A DNA stretch of 64,000 nt. Source: an uncultured Pelagibacteraceae bacterium (lineage in GTDB: Bacteria > Pseudomonadota > Alphaproteobacteria > Pelagibacterales > Pelagibacteraceae). The notes under the pieces were generated by a model. That model was not told the DNA's origin and ran no database searches. It was given only the letters and a program-made list of their open reading frames with translations. Below, in pieces: positions 48 to 8,173 of this stretch. Positions within the stretch are counted from its first letter, which is position 1, and every line of letters starts with the position of its first letter. Where the stretch lies: assembly GCA_902597055.1 (NCBI GenBank), contig CACJWG010000002.1, positions 1 to 64,000 on the forward strand. Reading direction: 5' to 3'. The translations under genes and the position numbers were made by a program.

Positions 48-2030
48 TTAATTGAAATTTATTGGATCAACATCAACTGAAAGTTTTATTCCTTTTGGGA
101 TTTTAAATCTTTTAAGAGCAATTTTTAAGTTTTTCTGAGCTGAAATATTCTTTGCAGATCTTAATAAAATCCTATTTCTATAATTTCCTCTTACTTTATA
201 GATCGGAGCATTTACTGGTCCGAGAATCTTGACTTTAAGGTTTTTTTTTAAAAATTCTGACAATTCAAATGATGCCTGGTCTGATTTTTTGCTATTTTGA
301 GCACTAACTATTATTGATATAAATCTCTCAAAAGGAGGCAATAAATTCTTTTCCCTCAGAATTAATTCTTTATCCAAAAAAATATAAGGATCAGGATTTA
401 CGATTTGTGATATGTAATCTGAGTTTAAATTCATTGTTTGAAAATAAACAGTTGAAGGCTTTCCTTCTCGACCGGCTCTACCTGATAGTTGGTGATAAAG
501 CTGTACAGTTTTTTCAGCACTTCTTAAATCGTAACCTCTAGAAGAATAATCAATATCCAATACAATAATACAGTTCAGATTAGGAAAATGAAAACCTTTT
601 GAAATCAGTTGAGTGCCAATTAAAATATTTATCTTATTATCTATTATCTCTTGGATTTTAGAAGATGAGTCCTTTTTATTCATGGTGTCACTTGAGAAAA
701 TTAAAGTGTTTTTATCAGGAAAAATCTTTTTAATTTCCTCAAGTATTTTTTCCACACCTGGACCACTAAAGCTAAAATCACATTGGAGGTCTTTTGAAGA
801 GCAGTCTCGTTTCATCTCTGCGGAATAACCACAATAATGACATAAAACTTTATTCTTTATCTTATGATAAACAAGATTAATTGAACAAAAAGGACAGTCA
901 AAAGTTTTTAAACAATTTTTACATAATACAAATGGTGAGTAACCTCTTCTATTTACAAAAAATAGAACCTGATTATTCCTAGATAAATTATCTTTTACTT
1001 TTTCAATCAATTCCTCTGAAATAAATGTTTGTTTTTTTTCACTTTTTTTTATTTTTATAATTTCATAATCTGGTAACTTTGCATCTCTAAATCGCTCAGT
1101 TAATCTAGATGAATGAAACTTTTTTGCTTTAATATTTTTATAAGTTTCTATAGATGGAACAGCAGAGATCAAATTTATAGGTATATTTTCAAAAGATGCT
1201 CTGGATATTGCCATATCTCTAGCATGATAGTTTACACCCTCATCTTGTTTGTAGGATTGGTCGTGTTCTTCATCTATTGTAATAAGACCTAACTTTTTAA
1301 AAGGTAAAAATAAAGCCGACCTAGCCCCTATGACAACTTTAATCTTTCCTGATTTCAAACCGCTCCAAATTATCTTTTTATTTTTCTTTGTAACTGATGA
1401 ATGCCAAATAGCTGGTTTAAAACCAAAAAAAGAAATGAAATTTTTTTCAAATTCTTTTGTGAGGCCAATTTCAGGAAGTAAAATTAAAGATTGATAACCT
1501 TCATTTAGTTTTTTTTTAATTGCATTAAAATAAACTATTGTTTTTCCTGAACCTGTAGTCCCTTGTAATACATGAACTCTAAAATTTTTATCCCCCTTTT
1601 CTATTTCTAATAAACTTTTTTTTTGCTGAATACTAAGACTGTAATCTTTGGTTGGGTGTTTTTTATTGAACTGATCGTAAGTGTCTGCTTTATAATCTTC
1701 TTCTAAAGAATTATTTGCTAAATGAAGCTTTAACGCCATCCCTTTTGGAACAATATTATAATCAGAAAACCAGTTTAAAAATTTAATTGTTTTATTTTCT
1801 AAAGGATCTTTTGTAAATTTTTTAATAATATCTTTGATTTTAAATTTTTTTTTAGGCCCTTCCTCAAAATCATCCCAGATAATACCTATCATTTTTTTTT
1901 TACCAAAAGGCACTTCTACATAATCGCCGATTTTAAGTTTTTCTTTTGAAGTGTATGTAAATGGGTAATCAAAAATGTTTGGTAATAGTACTGGTACTTT
2001 CATTTTTCTGTTTATTATATCGATTGGCAA
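48..2030 (-). CDS. priA: Primosomal replication-restart helicase PriA
   Basis: PriA is a 3'-to-5' DNA helicase that reloads the replisome at stalled forks. At 660 residues it is shorter than the roughly 730 of E. coli PriA. Visible are a Walker A motif (GTTGSGKT, about residues 157-164), a DEEH helicase box near residue 255 and a cysteine-rich zinc insert with CxxC pairs at about residues 370-420. The helicase C-terminal half includes a GRAGREG motif. It ends a minus-strand run, beginning 6 bases after the ion-channel gene stop. A second Met at residue 10 (start 2003) is an equally good start because PriA proteins often begin at that point. No clear Shine-Dalgarno sequence decides between them. 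Confidence 0.95.
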   Translation of the reverse strand: MPIDIINRKMKVPVLLPNIFDYPFTYTSKEKLKIGDYVEVPFGKKKMIGIIWDDFEEGPKKKFKIKDIIKKFTKDPLENKTIKFLNWFSDYNIVPKGMALKLHLANNSLEEDYKADTYDQFNKKHPTKDYSLSIQQKKSLLEIEKGDKNFRVHVLQGTTGSGKTIVYFNAIKKKLNEGYQSLILLPEIGLTKEFEKNFISFFGFKPAIWHSSVTKKNKKIIWSGLKSGKIKVVIGARSALFLPFKKLGLITIDEEHDQSYKQDEGVNYHARDMAISRASFENIPINLISAVPSIETYKNIKAKKFHSSRLTERFRDAKLPDYEIIKIKKSEKKQTFISEELIEKVKDNLSRNNQVLFFVNRRGYSPFVLCKNCLKTFDCPFCSINLVYHKIKNKVLCHYCGYSAEMKRDCSSKDLQCDFSFSGPGVEKILEEIKKIFPDKNTLIFSSDTMNKKDSSSKIQEIIDNKINILIGTQLISKGFHFPNLNCIIVLDIDYSSRGYDLRSAEKTVQLYHQLSGRAGREGKPSTVYFQTMNLNSDYISQIVNPDPYIFLDKELILREKNLLPPFERFISIIVSAQNSKKSDQASFELSEFLKKNLKVKILGPVNAPIYKVRGNYRNRILLRSAKNISAQKNLKIALKRFKIPKGIKLSVDVDPINFN

Positions 2031-2036
2031 ATAAAT

Positions 2037-3536
2037 TTATCTTAACGCCATCCAAGAAATTATCGCAGTTGAATTATTTGGGTTAATGCTAGCATTAATT
2101 AATATAATTACCAAAATTACAAAAAAATAGGACAAAACTCCATAACGTGTACTTATTTTTTCAACTTTTTTTCCTAAAAGTTGATTTATTGTAAGTAATC
2201 TAAAAGAGACAACACTTAAGATATTTGGAATTACTGCATAAATGTATGATGTCAAAATAATCCAATCCAAAACTGTTAAATACTCTAATTTAGGTAATTC
2301 TGAATCGATTACAAAATTATAAGCAATTAAAGACAGTAGACATACTATTGTGACAGTCAGCCTAGCTTCAAGCTCTTTTGGATCAATCCAAACTACTAAC
2401 CAACACACGGACAAAATTAGTACTATAGGTAGAATCACTTTGTACAAATAATAGCTATGTTTACGCTCAATAACCATTGATAACTCTAATCCGGTAGCGT
2501 AGTCATCTTTCATAAAAAATGGATTTTGATAACTTAAAATATTAAAATCAAAAGATTTTATATTCCATCCAGAAATATCGTTCTTATCTTTTATATTTGA
2601 TAATGATAAGGATGAAAGACCACTTTCATACAACATAGTATTTGGAATTTTTTGATAGTCATCAATAATTTTGATTGCTACAGTTTGCTTATCAAATGGA
2701 AATGTTTTTAAGTTAAATTTATTTTTTATAGTATATGTGCCCCCTAATTCAGAAGAAATAAGTAAAGAGTCATTTGGGTTTCCAATTTTTTGTGAGTACG
2801 GAGTCAGTTTATATGTTTTATCATCAATTAAATCTTTATCAGACTTAACAACATTAAGAATTTTAAATCCTTTTTCTGGAGGGTATAATTTTATTTCATT
2901 AAATTGTTTTTCCGTATAGTCACAAATAAAATAAGTATACGACCCATCATCTTTTTTAGGAATTATATTTTTCTCTACTGCATTCCAAAGTTCAGGGTGA
3001 CCTGCTGCACTATAATTTGAAAAAATATCATACTTAATGGAAAATTCGACGGTGCCATTTTTGGTATCAATTTTATTGAAGTCCAAATATTTTATATCTA
3101 GTGTTGGATCAAAAGAATAATATTTGGACTTATTAATTTTTTTTTTTATTATCCCGCCTATAGTCAATATTTCAAATTCAACTATGTCATTTTCGTTAAG
3201 TATTTTAGGATTAAAATTTTTTTGATTTGCTTTTAGAATTTGATCACCTGTTTTTAAATCTTTTAAAATATTACTATCGTAAATTCTTCCAACTAAAAAA
3301 TTTCCATCTTCTTTAACAAATTCCCAACTACCAGATTTTTTATTGTATTTTTCCATCAAATCAAAACCAAAATTATCAAATGGAACTGAATTTATAAAAT
3401 TATAATCTAATTGAGCCAAATCATTATTAAATGTCTCACAATCTGTTTCAGCTAATGTTGTATTTATATTTGATAAAAATAAAAAAATAAAAATGAATTT
3501 TAATTTTAATAAATTATTAAGTAATTTTTTTCTCAT
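2037..3536 (-). CDS. Prokaryotic pentameric ligand-gated ion channel (Cys-loop receptor family) with N-terminal PDZ-like domain
   Basis: A 499-residue membrane protein that I assign to the prokaryotic pLGIC family (relatives of GLIC and ELIC). It has a signal peptide (residues about 1-29), then a PDZ-like segment (about 70-135, with a KTGDQILKANQK core). A beta-rich extracellular region follows, bearing the family hallmark FPFD (279-282). Four membrane helices come next: M1 about 363-383 (containing ILP), M2 about 392-412, M3 about 423-447 and M4 about 464-482. The M1-M3 block aligns by eye with GLIC, including the DSELPK link between M2 and M3. The M2 gate residues and the ligand cannot be read from sequence. 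The gene overlaps the upstream protease gene by 20 bases, suggesting co-translation. The extra N-terminal domain is unusual. The family call is firm; ligand and ion selectivity are unknown. Confidence 0.85.
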   Translation of the reverse strand: MRKKLLNNLLKLKFIFIFLFLSNINTTLAETDCETFNNDLAQLDYNFINSVPFDNFGFDLMEKYNKKSGSWEFVKEDGNFLVGRIYDSNILKDLKTGDQILKANQKNFNPKILNENDIVEFEILTIGGIIKKKINKSKYYSFDPTLDIKYLDFNKIDTKNGTVEFSIKYDIFSNYSAAGHPELWNAVEKNIIPKKDDGSYTYFICDYTEKQFNEIKLYPPEKGFKILNVVKSDKDLIDDKTYKLTPYSQKIGNPNDSLLISSELGGTYTIKNKFNLKTFPFDKQTVAIKIIDDYQKIPNTMLYESGLSSLSLSNIKDKNDISGWNIKSFDFNILSYQNPFFMKDDYATGLELSMVIERKHSYYLYKVILPIVLILSVCWLVVWIDPKELEARLTVTIVCLLSLIAYNFVIDSELPKLEYLTVLDWIILTSYIYAVIPNILSVVSFRLLTINQLLGKKVEKISTRYGVLSYFFVILVIILINASINPNNSTAIISWMALR

Positions 3537-4203
3537 TTTCTTTTTCTTTTTTTCTCTGAGTCTTTTTTAATTTTGAAAACATTTGTAAAGCTACAACCCA
3601 CGAAACTATTACAAGAATAAGTGATATTAAAAAGTTAGACGCGGTAAATAAATTGTAGCATCCATGTAACGTGAAAGGGACTAAAAAAGCAAAGACTAGA
3701 TTATCGCCTCTTTTTACAAAAGTATATTTCATAAAAAAGTAACCCATGAAAACTCCAAATATCCCGTGTGCAGGTACAGCTGAAAAAGACCTCAGGAATG
3801 CCATGTAAATTGGCGTTGTTTCATAATAGTCAGCCAAAACATACACATAATAAAAGTTTTCTAAAGTTGCAAAACCAAGTGAGACTGTAACCCCATATAC
3901 TATGCCGTCGATAGGTTCATTAAAATCTTTCATTTTGTAAACAAGAAAATATAAAACAGCCAGCTTTAGACCTTCTTCAACTGGTGCTGCCGTGAAAAAA
4001 GAGGAACTAAGACCCTCGTCCATTTGTGTTGAGGCCCAAATTCCACCAAGATAAGTGTTAATAATAAAAGCAGGTATAGTTATCAAAATTCCATAAAAGA
4101 ATACTTTAATTATCTCAGAATTAGGTTCTTTAAACTTATCTGATAGAACAAAGAATACCACTATAAGTACTGATGGTAAAATTGTTGCTAACAGTAGAAT
4201 CAT
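3517..4203 (-). CDS. PrsW-family intramembrane metalloprotease homologue
   Basis: A 228-residue polytopic membrane protein with the PrsW pattern of putative metal-binding and catalytic residues: VEEGLK (Glu76-Glu77), GFATLEN (Glu115), PAHG (His146) and LHGCYN (His180), set in about seven hydrophobic helices. In Bacillus, PrsW cleaves an anti-sigma factor at the membrane; no anti-sigma factor is visible here, so the substrate is unknown. The start codon overlaps the stop of the upstream putative HTH gene by one base, and its 3' end overlaps the pLGIC gene by 20 bases. The three genes are therefore probably translated from one message. The C-terminus is Lys/Glu-rich and cytoplasmic. Confidence 0.8.
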   Translation of the reverse strand: MILLLATILPSVLIVVFFVLSDKFKEPNSEIIKVFFYGILITIPAFIINTYLGGIWASTQMDEGLSSSFFTAAPVEEGLKLAVLYFLVYKMKDFNEPIDGIVYGVTVSLGFATLENFYYVYVLADYYETTPIYMAFLRSFSAVPAHGIFGVFMGYFFMKYTFVKRGDNLVFAFLVPFTLHGCYNLFTASNFLISLILVIVSWVVALQMFSKLKKTQRKKEKENEKKIT

Positions 4204-4664
4204 TAACTTTTTTCAATTGTTGTTTTAATTTTTAAAATTTTATTCTCCAGTGCCTCAAAGGCATCGAAGATTTCCTTTTTTTCTACTCCAGAAATTTGTT
4301 CACCTTTATGACCCTCTGGATTTTTTGCGGTATTTATAACATCCATTAATTGCCCATGCAAAATTGTAAATTTTATGAGAAGTTCGTTTAAATCTTGCTG
4401 AGATCCTTTGGTATTTTTTATCTCTTTTAAGATGATGTATTCGTGAGCTCTTAAAAGATAGGGTGTTAATCCTCTCTCAACGCAAGCTTTATCAATTTTA
4501 ATGGCATCTTTATGATCTAATTGTTGGTCTAAATCAGGATCGCTACATTTTCTTAAAAATGACTCACTTTTTCCAGTTACCTCCTCAATAACCTTTGATT
4601 TAAGATTTTTAATTGCTTCTAAAAGTCCATGTTCAATTGACGATATTTGTCTAAGCTTTGCCAT
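4203..4664 (-). CDS. Putative HTH-type regulatory protein (phage CII-like fold)
   Basis: A 153-residue soluble protein. The N-terminal half (about residues 20-70) has the pattern of a lambda-CII/phage-regulator-like DNA-binding domain: a short helix, then SESFLRKCSDPD, then a helix ending in KACVERG. The C-terminal half (about 85-150) is amphipathic helix and may form an oligomerisation coil. No family name can be assigned with certainty. It is the first gene of the minus-strand set HTH-protease-channel-priA. A perfect 10-base inverted repeat lies 24 bases upstream of its start, in the region shared with the divergent mini-genes, so autoregulation is plausible. The regulatory role is inferred from the fold-like pattern only. 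Confidence 0.5.
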   Translation of the reverse strand: MAKLRQISSIEHGLLEAIKNLKSKVIEEVTGKSESFLRKCSDPDLDQQLDHKDAIKIDKACVERGLTPYLLRAHEYIILKEIKNTKGSQQDLNELLIKFTILHGQLMDVINTAKNPEGHKGEQISGVEKKEIFDAFEALENKILKIKTTIEKS

Positions 4665-4687
4665 AAAATGAAATTCTAATACAAATT

Positions 4688-4726
4688 TTGGACAAATAAA
4701 AACTAATAAAACATGGATTTGTCCAA
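4688..4726. promoter_or_regulatory. Inverted repeat, candidate operator in divergent promoter region
   Basis: Two perfect 10-base arms, TTGGACAAAT (4688-4697) and ATTTGTCCAA (4717-4726), are separated by 19 bases. They lie between the start of the putative HTH gene (4664) and the first mini-gene (4799). The centre-to-centre distance of 29 bases and the location suit binding by a dimeric regulator or pair of dimers. No T-run follows on either strand, so it is not a typical terminator. Confidence 0.5.
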
Positions 4727-4798
4727 TATTACCAGCCTCTTTTCACATACAAGAAATTTTAATCGTTATTATCTTAATTTTGTAACGAAAGGAAAAAA

Positions 4799-4882
4799 AT
4801 GAATAACTTTACATCTTTTAAACCAATTCAGATTAATGATGGTCTTAATTTGGTCGAAGTAAATAGAAAGGAGGTTGTATGA
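4799..4882 (+). CDS. 27-residue mini-ORF coupled to secreted peptide gene
   Basis: An ATG preceded by a purine-rich AAAGGA ribosome-binding stretch opens a 27-codon frame (starts MNNFTSFK, ends RKEVV). Its TGA overlaps the ATG of the next mini-gene by four bases (ATGA), the usual arrangement for translational coupling. The codons encoding its last residues contain the AAAGGAGG Shine-Dalgarno sequence of the next gene, so translating it would directly affect initiation there. It may be a real peptide or a leader ORF. I know of no family. Confidence 0.45.
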   Translation: MNNFTSFKPIQINDGLNLVEVNRKEVV

Positions 4883-5007
4883 AAAAGTTAGCTTTAGTGA
4901 TTGGTATAGTATCAATCTTAGCAACTAGCGCAAACGCTGCTGGTTATGTTTGTAAGCCTAATATCTATGGCGGTCAGACATGTGTGTATAGCGAATATGC
5001 ATTCTAG
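4879..5007 (+). CDS. Small secreted two-cysteine peptide (42-residue precursor)
   Basis: An ATG with a near-perfect AAAGGAGG Shine-Dalgarno 8 bases upstream opens a 42-codon frame. Residues 1-20 form a classic signal peptide: MKK, a hydrophobic core, then ATSANA with an Ala-X-Ala cleavage site. The mature part, about 21-22 residues, begins AGYVCKPN and contains two cysteines about ten residues apart, which could form one disulfide in the periplasm. A GC-rich hairpin follows the stop. The strong ribosome-binding site, signal peptide and hairpin together make this a credible gene despite its size. Function unknown; it is divergent from the regulator-protease-channel genes. Confidence 0.7.
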   Translation: MKKLALVIGIVSILATSANAAGYVCKPNIYGGQTCVYSEYAF

Positions 5008-5011
5008 TTTT

Positions 5012-5039
5012 ATGCCCCCTTTAAATAATTTTGAAGGGG
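5012..5039. terminator. GC-rich hairpin between convergent genes
   Basis: GCCCCCTT and AAGGGGGC form an 8-base stem around a 12-base AT loop in an otherwise AT-rich region. It sits between the secreted-peptide gene (ending 5007) and the convergent membrane-protein gene (ending 5047). There is no long T-run on either side, so it may be a weak bidirectional terminator or an mRNA 3'-end stabiliser. Confidence 0.55.
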
Positions 5040-5046
5040 GCAAAAT

Positions 5047-5364
5047 CTATACAGCGCCAGTAAGGATATCTCTAAACTGAATTATTATTCCTAAAACAAT
5101 TGCAACTTTTGCTAATACCGCCCAATGTTTTGGGCCTTTATATTTATCTGACGATCTCCATATACCAACAGACGTATATATTGCCCAAGGTATTATCAAA
5201 CCATAGACTGCATGAAAATGAAGTCCAATACTTAAGATTATGAGAGCACTAACAAAACCAAAAGCGTAACTCAATAGCACACCTACAAGCCAATAAGATT
5301 TTACTAAAGAAACATCTCCATTCCAAAAATCTACAAAGAAATTGTTATTTTTTTTTCTAGCCAT
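5047..5364 (-). CDS. Uncharacterised small inner-membrane protein
   Basis: A 105-residue protein with a short basic N-terminus (MARKKNN), a FWNGDVSLVKSYW stretch, then three hydrophobic helices (about residues 24-45, 50-68 and 83-100) and a conserved-looking WRSSDKYKGPKHW loop. The pattern resembles small uncharacterised membrane proteins common in marine alphaproteobacteria, but I cannot name a family. It lies 79 bases downstream of lpd in the same direction and could be transcribed from the TCA array or from its own promoter in that gap. I see no RNA gene in the gap. Confidence 0.7.
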   Translation of the reverse strand: MARKKNNNFFVDFWNGDVSLVKSYWLVGVLLSYAFGFVSALIILSIGLHFHAVYGLIIPWAIYTSVGIWRSSDKYKGPKHWAVLAKVAIVLGIIIQFRDILTGAV

Positions 5365-5443
5365 AACTTAATTTATATTAATAATAAGTGTTGGTAAACA
5401 GTTGAAATGAAATGAGAAGCTAGATGCATATTCAAAGGGACAA

Positions 5444-6844
5444 TTAAGAGTGTATTTGTCTTTTTTCAACAGATAAAGCCGCCTCTTTTATTGCCTCAGA
5501 AAATGTTGGATGAGCATGGCACGTTCGTGCGATATCCTCAGAGCTTGCTCCAAATTCCATTGCAACTGCCATTTCTGCTATCATTTCTCCTACATGAGGC
5601 CCTATCATATGTACTCCTAAAACTTTATCAGTATCTTTATCGGCTAAGATTTTTACGAATCCTTCAGGCTCATCAATTGCTTTAGCTCTTGAGTTGGCCA
5701 TAAAAGGAAACTTTCCAATTTTATAAGACTTATTCTTTTCTTTAAGTTGCTCTTCCGTTAAACCTATACTTGCTACCTCGGGAGTAGTGTAAATTACCCC
5801 TGGAATTAAATCGTAGTTTACATGACCAGATTGGCCCGCAATTATTTCTGCAACTGCGATCCCTTCCTCTTCAGCTTTGTGAGCTAACATTGGCCCATCA
5901 ATTACATCTCCAATAGCGTAAATATTTTTTGCTGAAGTTTGAAATTTTTTGTCGATTTTAATCCTTCCTTTTTCGTCTGATTTTACTCCTGCAGAACTCA
6001 AATTTAAATTAGATGTAAACGGTTTTCTTCCAATTGATATTAGGGCTACGTCACAATTAAATTCTTTGCTGTCTCCATTCTTATCTGACGTTGAAATTTG
6101 TACCCCATTGTTAGTTTTTTTAATGCTAGTTACTTTTCTATTTAAGTGAAACTTTATATTTTGTTTCTTCAATATTTTCATAAACTCTTCTGAAATCTCT
6201 CTATCCATCCCAGGTGTGATATGATCTAAAAATTCGATTACATTTACTTCAGCCCCTAAACGAGACCAGACAGAACCCATTTCTAAACCTATATAACCCC
6301 CACCAACAACAACTAGACTTTTCGGAACTTCTTTTAAAGATAGGGCGCCAGTCGAAGAGACGATTGTTTTTTCATCAAATTCTGCGTTGGGCATAGGCAT
6401 TGCCTCAGATCCAGTTGCAATAATAATATTTTTTGCCTCAATTTCTCTTTTTTTACCATCTTCAGCTTTTACTGATATTTTCTTGTCAGAAATAAAACTG
6501 CCAAAACCTTTTAGGTAAGTTACTTTGTTTTTTTTGAATAAAAATTCAACACCTTTGGTCAAGATTGAAACTGCTTTGTCCTTATTTTTCATCATCTTGT
6601 CTAAATTAAGTTTTACGTCTCCTGTTTCAATTCCAAGTTTAGAAAAATTTTTAGCTTTTTTAAAATTCTCAGACAAATTTAATAAGCTTTTTGAAGGAAT
6701 ACATCCAATGTTTAAACAAGTTCCACCCAGAGAACCTCTAGCTTCTATACAAGCAGTTTTTTGACCTAATTGAGCTAACCTTATAGCACAAACATATCCA
6801 CCAGGTCCGCCACCGATCACTACTGAGTCAAATTTTTCTATCAT
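5444..6844 (-). CDS. lpdA: Dihydrolipoamide dehydrogenase (E3)
   Basis: Flavoprotein that reoxidises dihydrolipoamide with NAD+ in the 2-oxoglutarate dehydrogenase complex and possibly other lipoyl complexes. An FAD dinucleotide fold (GGGPGGY, about residues 11-17) and the redox-active disulfide GGTCLNIGCIPSK (Cys43, Cys48) are clear. So are the NAD fold (GGGYIGLEMG), the second FAD motif (YAIGDV) and the C-terminal His-Glu dyad in HAHPTFSEA. 466 residues is the normal length. It starts 3 bases after sucB and completes the order sucA-sucB-lpd, so this copy most likely serves 2-oxoglutarate oxidation. Confidence 0.97.
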   Translation of the reverse strand: MIEKFDSVVIGGGPGGYVCAIRLAQLGQKTACIEARGSLGGTCLNIGCIPSKSLLNLSENFKKAKNFSKLGIETGDVKLNLDKMMKNKDKAVSILTKGVEFLFKKNKVTYLKGFGSFISDKKISVKAEDGKKREIEAKNIIIATGSEAMPMPNAEFDEKTIVSSTGALSLKEVPKSLVVVGGGYIGLEMGSVWSRLGAEVNVIEFLDHITPGMDREISEEFMKILKKQNIKFHLNRKVTSIKKTNNGVQISTSDKNGDSKEFNCDVALISIGRKPFTSNLNLSSAGVKSDEKGRIKIDKKFQTSAKNIYAIGDVIDGPMLAHKAEEEGIAVAEIIAGQSGHVNYDLIPGVIYTTPEVASIGLTEEQLKEKNKSYKIGKFPFMANSRAKAIDEPEGFVKILADKDTDKVLGVHMIGPHVGEMIAEMAVAMEFGASSEDIARTCHAHPTFSEAIKEAALSVEKRQIHS

Positions 6845-6847
6845 AAA

Positions 6848-8173
6848 CTATAAATTTAAAAATAATCTTCTTGGATCTTCTAAATTATCTTTTGTATTTT
6901 TTAAAAAAGAAACCGCTTCTTTCCCATCAATTATTCTATGATCATATGATAAAGCTATATACATTATTGGTCTTATTTTAATTTCACCATTTACCACATG
7001 CGGCCTTTCTACAATATTATGCATTCCTAAAACTCCAGATTGAGGTAAATTTAAAATAGGTGTTGATAACATTGACCCATAGACACCACCGTTGCTGATA
7101 GTAAATGTCCCGCCTTGAAGATCGTCAATTGTAATCTTTCCATCTCTTGCTTTATCAGACAATTCTTTAATTTTCTTTTCTATGTCTGCAAAAGACATTT
7201 CATCTGCATTTTTTAGAACTGGAACCACAAGACCTTTTTCGGTGCCTACTGCAAAACTTATATTATAGTAGTTCTTATAAATTATGTTCTCTCCCTCGAT
7301 TTCAGCATTAATTGCTGGAAAAAGTTTTAGACTTTCAATGCAAGCTTTAACAAAAAAGGACATAAAACCTAGTTTTATGCCAAACCTATCTTGAAAATCA
7401 CTTTGATTTTCTTTTCTCATGTCAATTATACCGCTCATATCAACTTCATTAAAAGTTGTAAGCATTGCTGCATTATCTTGAGCTTGTTTGAGTCTTTTAG
7501 CAATTGTTTGTCTTAGTCTTGTCATTTTTATTTTTTCTTCTTGGCCAAACTTTATTTTCCGCTCAGAAGGTCCAGGTTTAATGTTCATTAAACTTAGTAG
7601 ATCACCTTTTGAAACTCTTCCACCTCTGCCAGTTCCTTGAATTTTTTTTAAGTCAATTTTATTATCTGCAGCAATCTTTCTCACAGCAGGAGAAACAGAT
7701 ACATCTTTTGTTTTTTTAGATTTCTCTTTTTTATAGGATACTTCTTCTGTGAGGATTAATGGTTCTTCCTCACTTGTATTTTCATTAGGTTCTGAAATTT
7801 TTTCTTCCTTATCGAACAGTTTTGTCTCAACTTCTTTTGTTTCAACTTCTTTTTTTAAACTAATAATATTATCTTCGTTGTGTACTACTTTTTTCTCTTC
7901 TTTAGGTTCATTCTCAGTTTCATCTTTTTTTGAGCTTCCTCCAATTATTGATCCGAGAACGGCTCCTACCTCAACCGTTGAGCCGTTTTGAGCATTTATT
8001 TCACTTAATACACCATCTGAAGGGGATGGAACCTCTAAATTTACTTTATCAGTTTCAAGTTCAACAACAGGTTCATCGGCTTCAACACTATCACCTTTAT
8101 TTTTTAACCATTTAGCTACAGTTGCTTCTGTTATACTTTCTCCTAAAACTGGAACTACAATTTTATCTGACAT
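6848..8173 (-). CDS. sucB: Dihydrolipoyllysine succinyltransferase, E2 of 2-oxoglutarate dehydrogenase
   Basis: E2 core of the 2-oxoglutarate dehydrogenase complex, transferring the succinyl group to CoA. Domains in order: a lipoyl domain (residues 1-76, lipoyl Lys43 in ETDKVNLE), a long Glu/Lys-rich low-complexity linker (about 80-150), the E1/E3-binding domain ([18 protein letters not shown], about 157-193) and the catalytic domain. The catalytic domain ends with HRIIDG (His412, Asp416). It overlaps the sucA stop by one base. The linker is longer than usual and unusually acidic and basic in alternation. Confidence 0.97.

Follow-up and report, generated by a model that had tools for sequence, protein, structure and literature searches.

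The window, a 64,000-nucleotide stretch of DNA from an uncultured Pelagibacteraceae bacterium, carries near its start a compact group of three genes, all on the reverse strand. The gene at positions 2037 to 3536, delimited by an ORF call and profile searches, begins with ATG and encodes a 499-amino-acid homologue of the pentameric ligand-gated ion channels (pLGICs). Upstream of it lies prsW (3517 to 4203), which encodes a PrsW-family intramembrane protease of 228 amino acids and shares 20 bp with the channel gene. Its product is recognized by PF13367 (4.5e-35) and by an EExxK motif, and it matches NCBIfam NF033739 (PrsW) at 9.2e-42 with 143 bits, below the equivalog cut-off of 225 bits. The third gene (4203 to 4664) encodes a CII/CP76-like putative regulator of 153 amino acids, and its stop codon ends on the base with which the prsW start codon begins. 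Together the CP76-like gene, prsW and the channel gene form one tightly packed run that is likely an operon.

The channel protein consists of several segments. A putative signal peptide (residues 1-29; 3450 to 3536) is recognized by eye, the hydrophobic leader stopping near TLA-ETDC. It is followed by a short segment with a conserved cysteine (3375 to 3449, from the clade-A alignment described below), a PDZ domain (about residues 55-138; 3123 to 3374, placed by family profile and alignment), an extracellular ligand-binding-type domain (about residues 146-358; 2463 to 3101, from a profile search and hhalign) and a transmembrane domain with helices M1 to M4 (about residues 361-497; 2046 to 2456), the last delimited by matches to PDB entries and by helices in low-confidence AlphaFold models.

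Channel homologues in the SAR11 family

Relatives were collected from 397 genomes that belong, like the window, to the SAR11 family of GTDB, with ORFs called mechanically and a pLGIC counted at 1e-3 or better; 42 of the 397 contain one. A tree of 54 pLGIC sequences of at least 350 residues, with the fragments L076 and L115 left out, contains four clades with supports of 99/97 (A), 98/99 (B), 100/99 (C) and 100/100 (D). Clade A is the type found in the window, clade B has no PDZ domain, clade C has a PDZ-like N-terminal domain, and clade D is short and PDZ-less; the grouping of A with C is weak (80/40). Clade A occurs in 12 genomes, clade B without A in three, clade C in 18 and clade D in 11, with C and D present together in two genomes. 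Two more clade-A members come from named Pelagibacteraceae records, giving 14 clade-A loci. Of 385 genomes drawn from the class, 15 have a match to the clade-A profile. Besides the window genome, eight match it in the channel part, and in six the match is confined to the N-terminal part. One IMG/VR scan found no viral relatives of this profile.

The attribution to SAR11 in the original prediction agrees with two named relatives from uncultured Pelagibacteraceae, which are 86 and 80% identical to the window protein. Its description of such channels as poorly explored is fair, yet they are not wholly unknown, as Pelagibacter is named among pLGIC-bearing plankton in PMC4795631. The presence of pLGICs in Pelagibacter is thus already known, and it is the genomic context that is new. 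Channels of different clades can occupy a common chromosomal neighbourhood, as with L041 (clade A) and L060, L062 and L064 (clade C), or L036 and L042 (clade A) and L053 and L055 (clade C), which suggests that the modules are exchangeable cassettes.

Sequence comparison makes the identity of the channel gene as a pLGIC homologue secure. With the window protein as query, phmmer matches a PDB entry of the proton-gated channel GLIC over residues 273-444 (E 5.7e-15). A profile built from the 14 clade-A sequences has as its best PDB match 6hjx, a 'Cys-loop ligand-gated ion channel' (5.8e-24), and it also matches ELIC-named entries (1.2e-21), 6v4a, which we take to be DeCLIC (1.3e-21), and proton-gated (GLIC) entries (5.4e-21). 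NCBIfam LGIC_1 matches at 8.6e-30 with 104 bits, under its 500-bit cut-off. Direct homology to solved pLGICs runs from about residue 268 on and includes the transmembrane domain, while for the earlier half of the ligand domain the link passes only through the PDZ-less clade B (hhalign 1.2e-57, from residue 146). These results uphold the predicted GLIC-type channel. The proposed check against Pfam came out mixed: PF02932 is significant (E 3.6e-4) but at 21.3 bits falls under its curated cut-off of 28.1 bits, which is the sensitivity criterion of one model and no biological feature, and PF02931 is not reported in the Pfam scan of the window protein. The outcome named in the original prediction as refuting it, a PF02932 search with nothing significant, thus did not occur.

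According to Table 1 of Jaiteh et al. (PMC4795631), the seven most conserved residues of the superfamily are those of the F/YPxD motif, the β9 Trp, the pre-M1 Arg, the M1 Pro and the M2-M3 Pro. All seven can be assigned in the window protein from motifs and the GLIC alignment (F279, P280, D282, W324, R358, P370 and P415), and they are invariant in 14 of 14 clade-A rows. The FPFD motif of the Pro-loop (residues 279-282; 2691 to 2702, from the clade-A alignment) and the ELPK motif of the M2-M3 link (residues 413-416) are both found as first proposed. AlphaFold models of the channel are of low confidence, with a pLDDT of 36.4 from one sequence and 36.1 from three. The protein is probably a subunit of a homopentamer seated in the inner membrane, its ligand and PDZ domains facing the periplasm.

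The PDZ assignment is made through the family profile, as the window protein's own N-terminal domain gives no Pfam match when searched alone. PF00595 matches eight of the 14 homologous clade-A N-terminal domains (best 1.2e-6), PDZ_6 matches six of the 14 and PDZ_2 five. Against the PDB, the profile of these domains matches a tandem-PDZ entry from the Aquifex site-2 protease at 6.8e-12 summed over two PDZ copies, the best single stretch reaching 7.8e-5; DegP and other PDZ proteins come next, and the matches shown are mostly PDZ, with a few non-PDZ entries near 0.02. Since the clade-B ligand domain aligns with the window protein from residue 146, the PDZ domain is placed between the leader and the ligand domain. 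The predicted arrangement of a leader and a PDZ-like segment ahead of the ligand domain is therefore retained, the PDZ domain from profile searches and the leader by eye. The residues GF (57-58) sit at what we take to be the position of the PDZ carboxylate-binding loop, and Gly57 is kept in 13 of the 14 clade-A rows. PDZ domains of HtrA and DegS bind exposed or newly cut protein C-termini, and the domain described here may likewise read protein C-termini. The clade-C N-terminal domain is homologous to the clade-A PDZ set (hhalign E 3.6e-8). It was rejected as a PDZ domain in its own right and is taken only as a homologue, as searches of the clade-C domains alone against the PDB give no significant PDZ match (best 0.54) and Pfam PDZ matches occur in two of 17 members, at 0.039 or worse.

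The M2 pore helix extends from Glu390 at position -2' to about residue 411 (2304 to 2369), with Arg392 at 0', Val at 6' and Leu401 at 9', the prime numbers being set in this analysis from the GLIC alignment. Position 0' is Arg in clade A, with Lys in two of the 14 rows. The acid at -2' is Glu in 14 of 14 clade-A rows and Glu or Asp in 17 of 17 aligned clade-C rows. The pore is predicted to be cation-selective because this clade-A Glu aligns opposite a Glu of GLIC M2. Two cysteines of the window protein, Cys33 (in 14 of 14 rows) and Cys205, are invariant in clade A, and inspection by eye shows cysteines at similar places in clades B and D. The pair constitutes a candidate disulfide that would link the N-terminus to the ligand domain and is not the Cys-loop of the animal receptors.

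Protease genes beside the channels

The most informative feature of the channel locus, and one on which the original prediction is silent, is its protease gene neighbourhood. From this gene context, the channel may couple periplasmic or intramembrane proteolysis to cation flow, with the PDZ domain reading C-termini, a reading that we favour tentatively and with somewhat less than even confidence.

In the clade-A loci prsW overlaps or abuts the start of the channel gene in 12 of 14 cases, and in the remaining two it is found on the same strand at distances of 393 and 2589 bp. PrsW, counted at 1e-5, is found in 50 of the 397 genomes. It lies within 3 kb of a pLGIC in all 15 clade A/B genomes and occurs anywhere in 35 of the 382 others (Fisher 4e-15, kinship ignored); a pLGIC match accompanies it in 29 of the 50 genomes and is lacking in 21. 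As PrsW lies near the PDZ-less clade-B channels as well, it is not tied to the PDZ domain. The CP76-like gene is present in seven of 80 pLGIC-free genomes. Three loci show a further overlap, between PrsW and a protein of 325-339 amino acids (L045:5419-6435, with a pLGIC; L082:2-976 and L084:187-1197, without one), part of which resembles DUF805 by similarity to a neighbouring gene.

In two of the clade-A loci, the run of PrsW and pLGIC genes also holds a flavin amine oxidase gene (L034:7897-9297 and L035:6830-8170) and another pLGIC gene that lacks a PDZ domain. The oxidase might hint at an amine ligand, and in this respect it bears on a different view of the channel, as an ordinary chemoreceptor for a small molecule such as an amine, an amino acid, protons or calcium, where the PDZ domain would anchor, cluster or assemble the protein and PrsW would serve processing or quality control. 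Chemoreception has been proposed for bacterial pLGICs by Tasneem et al. (PMC549065). With the oxidase confined to two of 14 clade-A loci, and with the recurrence of three different protease families beside channels left unexplained, we consider the chemoreceptor possible but rather unlikely.

The usual gene order in clade C is a caspase (PF00656), a trypsin-like protease (PF13365), a CP76-like gene in opposite orientation, and then the channel. By NCBIfam, the trypsin-like protein has a protease domain of the HtrA/DegP family. Of the 18 clade-C loci, 15 have the trypsin-like gene no more than 1.2 kb away, 14 have the caspase no more than 2.5 kb away and 16 have the CP76-like gene no more than 0.9 kb away; no caspase is seen in four, and neither protease of the pair in three. 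L053 to L055 have PrsW and DUF2167 genes in place of the caspase-trypsin pair, and L061 has a PrsW gene downstream, its stretch ending before a caspase could appear. Across the 397 genomes a caspase is found in 16, of which 14 have it within 2.5 kb of a clade-C pLGIC (Fisher 2.5e-13, kinship ignored); the exceptions are G170, with a caspase and a trypsin-like gene and no channel on the stretch, and G281, where the caspase accompanies a sigma-like gene.

A dedicated HtrA-like protease was defined as a match at 1e-50 or better, all other matches being at 6.7e-23 or worse. Such a protease is present in 18 of the 42 pLGIC genomes, never more than 1.2 kb from a pLGIC, as well as in one (G170) of 80 pLGIC-free genomes taken in handle order as a control (Fisher 3.5e-9, kinship ignored). 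In three clade-A loci, including L044 and L043 on the two deepest and longest branches, the HtrA-like gene lies directly downstream of the channel gene and overlaps it. No PDZ domain was detected on the HtrA-like proteases of L050 and L037, which belong to modules of the SAR11 family, or on that of L044, the three scanned with Pfam to E 0.1. Catalytic motifs are largely in place: all 18 dedicated proteases contain TNWHV and GNSGG, 14 of the 18 show a KD[LI]A pattern, and the caspases have YY[SA]GHG in 13 of 14 loci (absent from L062) and DSC in all 14, the L051 caspase being interrupted by stops. By eye, most clade-C protease leaders resemble signal peptides. None of the 11 clade-D loci has a PrsW, caspase or HtrA-like neighbour on the fetched stretches. 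In the window genome, which is 71% complete, no caspase match was obtained, and the search for the HtrA-like protease gave only a DegP-type match.

The C-termini of the trypsin-like proteases were considered as PDZ ligands and rejected; many are alike (WDKYEKIS-like), and most end in Ser, Gly or Thr and not in a hydrophobic residue. Several other gene families were encountered around these modules. Arrays of one to seven copies of a family of about 200 amino acids lie beside the caspase-trypsin-channel module in L063 (875-5695), L051 (6481-10203) and nine other clade-C loci; its members have export leaders by eye and the sequence DIxDFQIEGMSIGDSLLD, and the one member searched has no Pfam, NCBIfam or PADLOC match. 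Two uncharacterised families, of about 500 amino acids (eight loci) and about 374 amino acids (six loci), occur near clade A and C modules, such as L044 (1396-4021), L050 and L060 to L065, and give no convincing Pfam match. In L098 (G281), positions 681-7928 hold a cluster without a pLGIC, composed of an HtrA-like protease, a sigma-like gene with a weak Sigma70_r4_2 match and two caspase-domain genes; the neighbour of the sigma-like gene resembles an anti-sigma factor by eye.

A caspase, a trypsin-like protease and a membrane channel in one cluster also evoke an effector of abortive infection or programmed death, in which a protease cascade would open the channel and kill or stall the cell, in functional analogy to bacterial gasdermins and their caspase-like proteases. 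The catalytic motifs in most of the proteases fit this scheme, as do the channels of different clades that occupy the same chromosomal neighbourhoods in the manner of swapping cassettes. Most of the proteases, however, have export leaders by eye and so would act outside the cytoplasm. PADLOC, applied to three proteins of the window plus seven relatives or neighbours, returned nothing for the channel, PrsW or the regulator and only generic assignments for the proteases, and no open-access paper was found that pairs 'pentameric ligand-gated' with 'phage defense'. A death effector is accordingly judged quite improbable.

A second family, f31, has a pLGIC match in 31 of 52 genomes, and its neighbourhoods were examined in 15 regions from 14 genomes together with L116 and L117. 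A CP76-like gene lies directly upstream of 15 f31 channel genes. All five pLGIC genes of a second type (L143, L144, L145, L148 and L152) have a PrsW gene no more than 30 bp away; in four cases PrsW is downstream of the channel, unlike the upstream prsW of the window, and three of the five look like close copies with the same score (331.1 bits). PrsW is present in 13 of the 52 genomes, the other eight not being beside a pLGIC match. Five f31 channels were scanned for PDZ domains, giving two weak matches (best 0.0015 and 0.028) and three without any; the two PrsW-linked channels scanned have no PDZ domain, and the PDZ-type channel adjoins the CP76-like gene instead. The PF02932 cut-off is passed by three of five f31 relatives (29.7, 30.7 and 34) and missed by two (24.4 and 24.1). 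A large caspase-domain protein is encoded about 2.6 kb from f31 pLGIC genes in L153 (9828-12356), where it carries Sel1 repeats, and in L157 (824-3337).

Chance adjacency is rejected on the counts for PrsW, the caspase and the HtrA-like protease, although relatives are not independent in them. The proteases could still be passive neighbours, inherited together with the channels and having no functional link to them: small genomes can keep gene order, the counts ignore phylogeny, and some clade-A loci have flanking genes in common. Yet the overlap or abutment of prsW and the channel gene persists in clade-A members merely 30-37% identical to the window protein, several different flanks are found outside the module, and the adjacency of PrsW and pLGIC genes recurs in f31, so that passive inheritance appears very improbable.

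Proposed role and comparison with known systems

If the channel does couple proteolysis to cation flow, the trigger could be envelope damage or unfolded or cleaved exported proteins. The PDZ domain would bind the exposed or newly cut C-termini, and binding would shift the ligand domain so that cations enter, an entry that might signal to the cell or shut it down. The proteases encoded alongside would create such ends or take them away; PrsW could trim or release a partner, or reset the channel. In the related clade, the same job would fall to two secreted proteases, one caspase-like and the other HtrA-like and PDZ-less, as if protease and peptide-reading domain had been divided between two genes, in a manner recalling HtrA and DegS. 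A narrower version, in which peptides or C-termini made by the protease (PrsW, or the caspase with the PDZ-less HtrA-like protein in the related clade) themselves bind the PDZ domain and open the cation pore, is unlikely as it stands; if true, it would amount to HtrA-to-channel signalling in split form and would give pLGICs a gating input that is new for them.

To our knowledge, the native role of bacterial pLGICs is largely unknown. That PDZ-bearing pLGICs of marine bacteria with streamlined genomes are repeatedly linked to proteases, and to proteases of three kinds, provides a tangible way to approach it; the linkage suggests that a neurotransmitter-sensing family can be wired to proteolysis, and it names partners for reconstitution. 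Given the great abundance of SAR11 bacteria in the ocean, the question also has ecological relevance. In the open-access literature no link of PDZ-bearing pLGICs to proteases was found and nothing pairs SAR11 with 'pentameric ligand-gated'; judged by titles and listings, nothing related appeared for PrsW with 'ligand-gated ion channel' or for pLGICs with PDZ domains in prokaryotes, and bacterial ligand-gated channels in operons with a caspase and trypsin led to nothing but a volume of abstracts from an insect symposium.

Among known channels, ELIC and GLIC share with the window channel the second half of the ligand domain, the channel domain, the Pro-loop, the M1 Pro and the M2-M3 Pro, and GLIC also shares the acid at -2'. 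The window channel differs in having Val at 6', and we know of no N-terminal PDZ domain in ELIC or GLIC. DeCLIC of Desulfofustis is likewise a pLGIC with extra periplasmic N-terminal domains; according to PMC9897478, its extra part is two jelly-roll lobes, whereas that of the window channel is a PDZ domain, and the word PDZ is absent from the main text of that paper. Other bacterial pLGICs are fused to PBP-I, Cache and MCP-N sensing domains or stand in operons with sensor genes (PMC549065). Like the window channel, these fusions are bacterial pLGICs that carry an additional domain for sensing at the N-terminus; the main text of that source contains neither 'protease' nor 'PDZ'.

For the proteases, the nearest comparisons lie elsewhere. 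Bacterial gasdermin systems, the subject of PMC9079055, likewise place a caspase-like protease gene beside a membrane-pore gene; they use another pore family, whereas here the pore protein is a pLGIC for which PADLOC has no match, and the proteases are apparently exported. The window's prsW has the family match and the EExxK motif of the glutamic-type intramembrane proteases, and its neighbour is a channel gene. PrsW itself acts on the anti-sigma factor RsiW. The HtrA/DegS systems are approached from two sides, as the protease beside the related channels has a DegP/HtrA-family domain and the PDZ profile of the channels matches the PDZ domains of site-2 protease and DegP, with the difference that here protease and PDZ domain reside on separate polypeptides.
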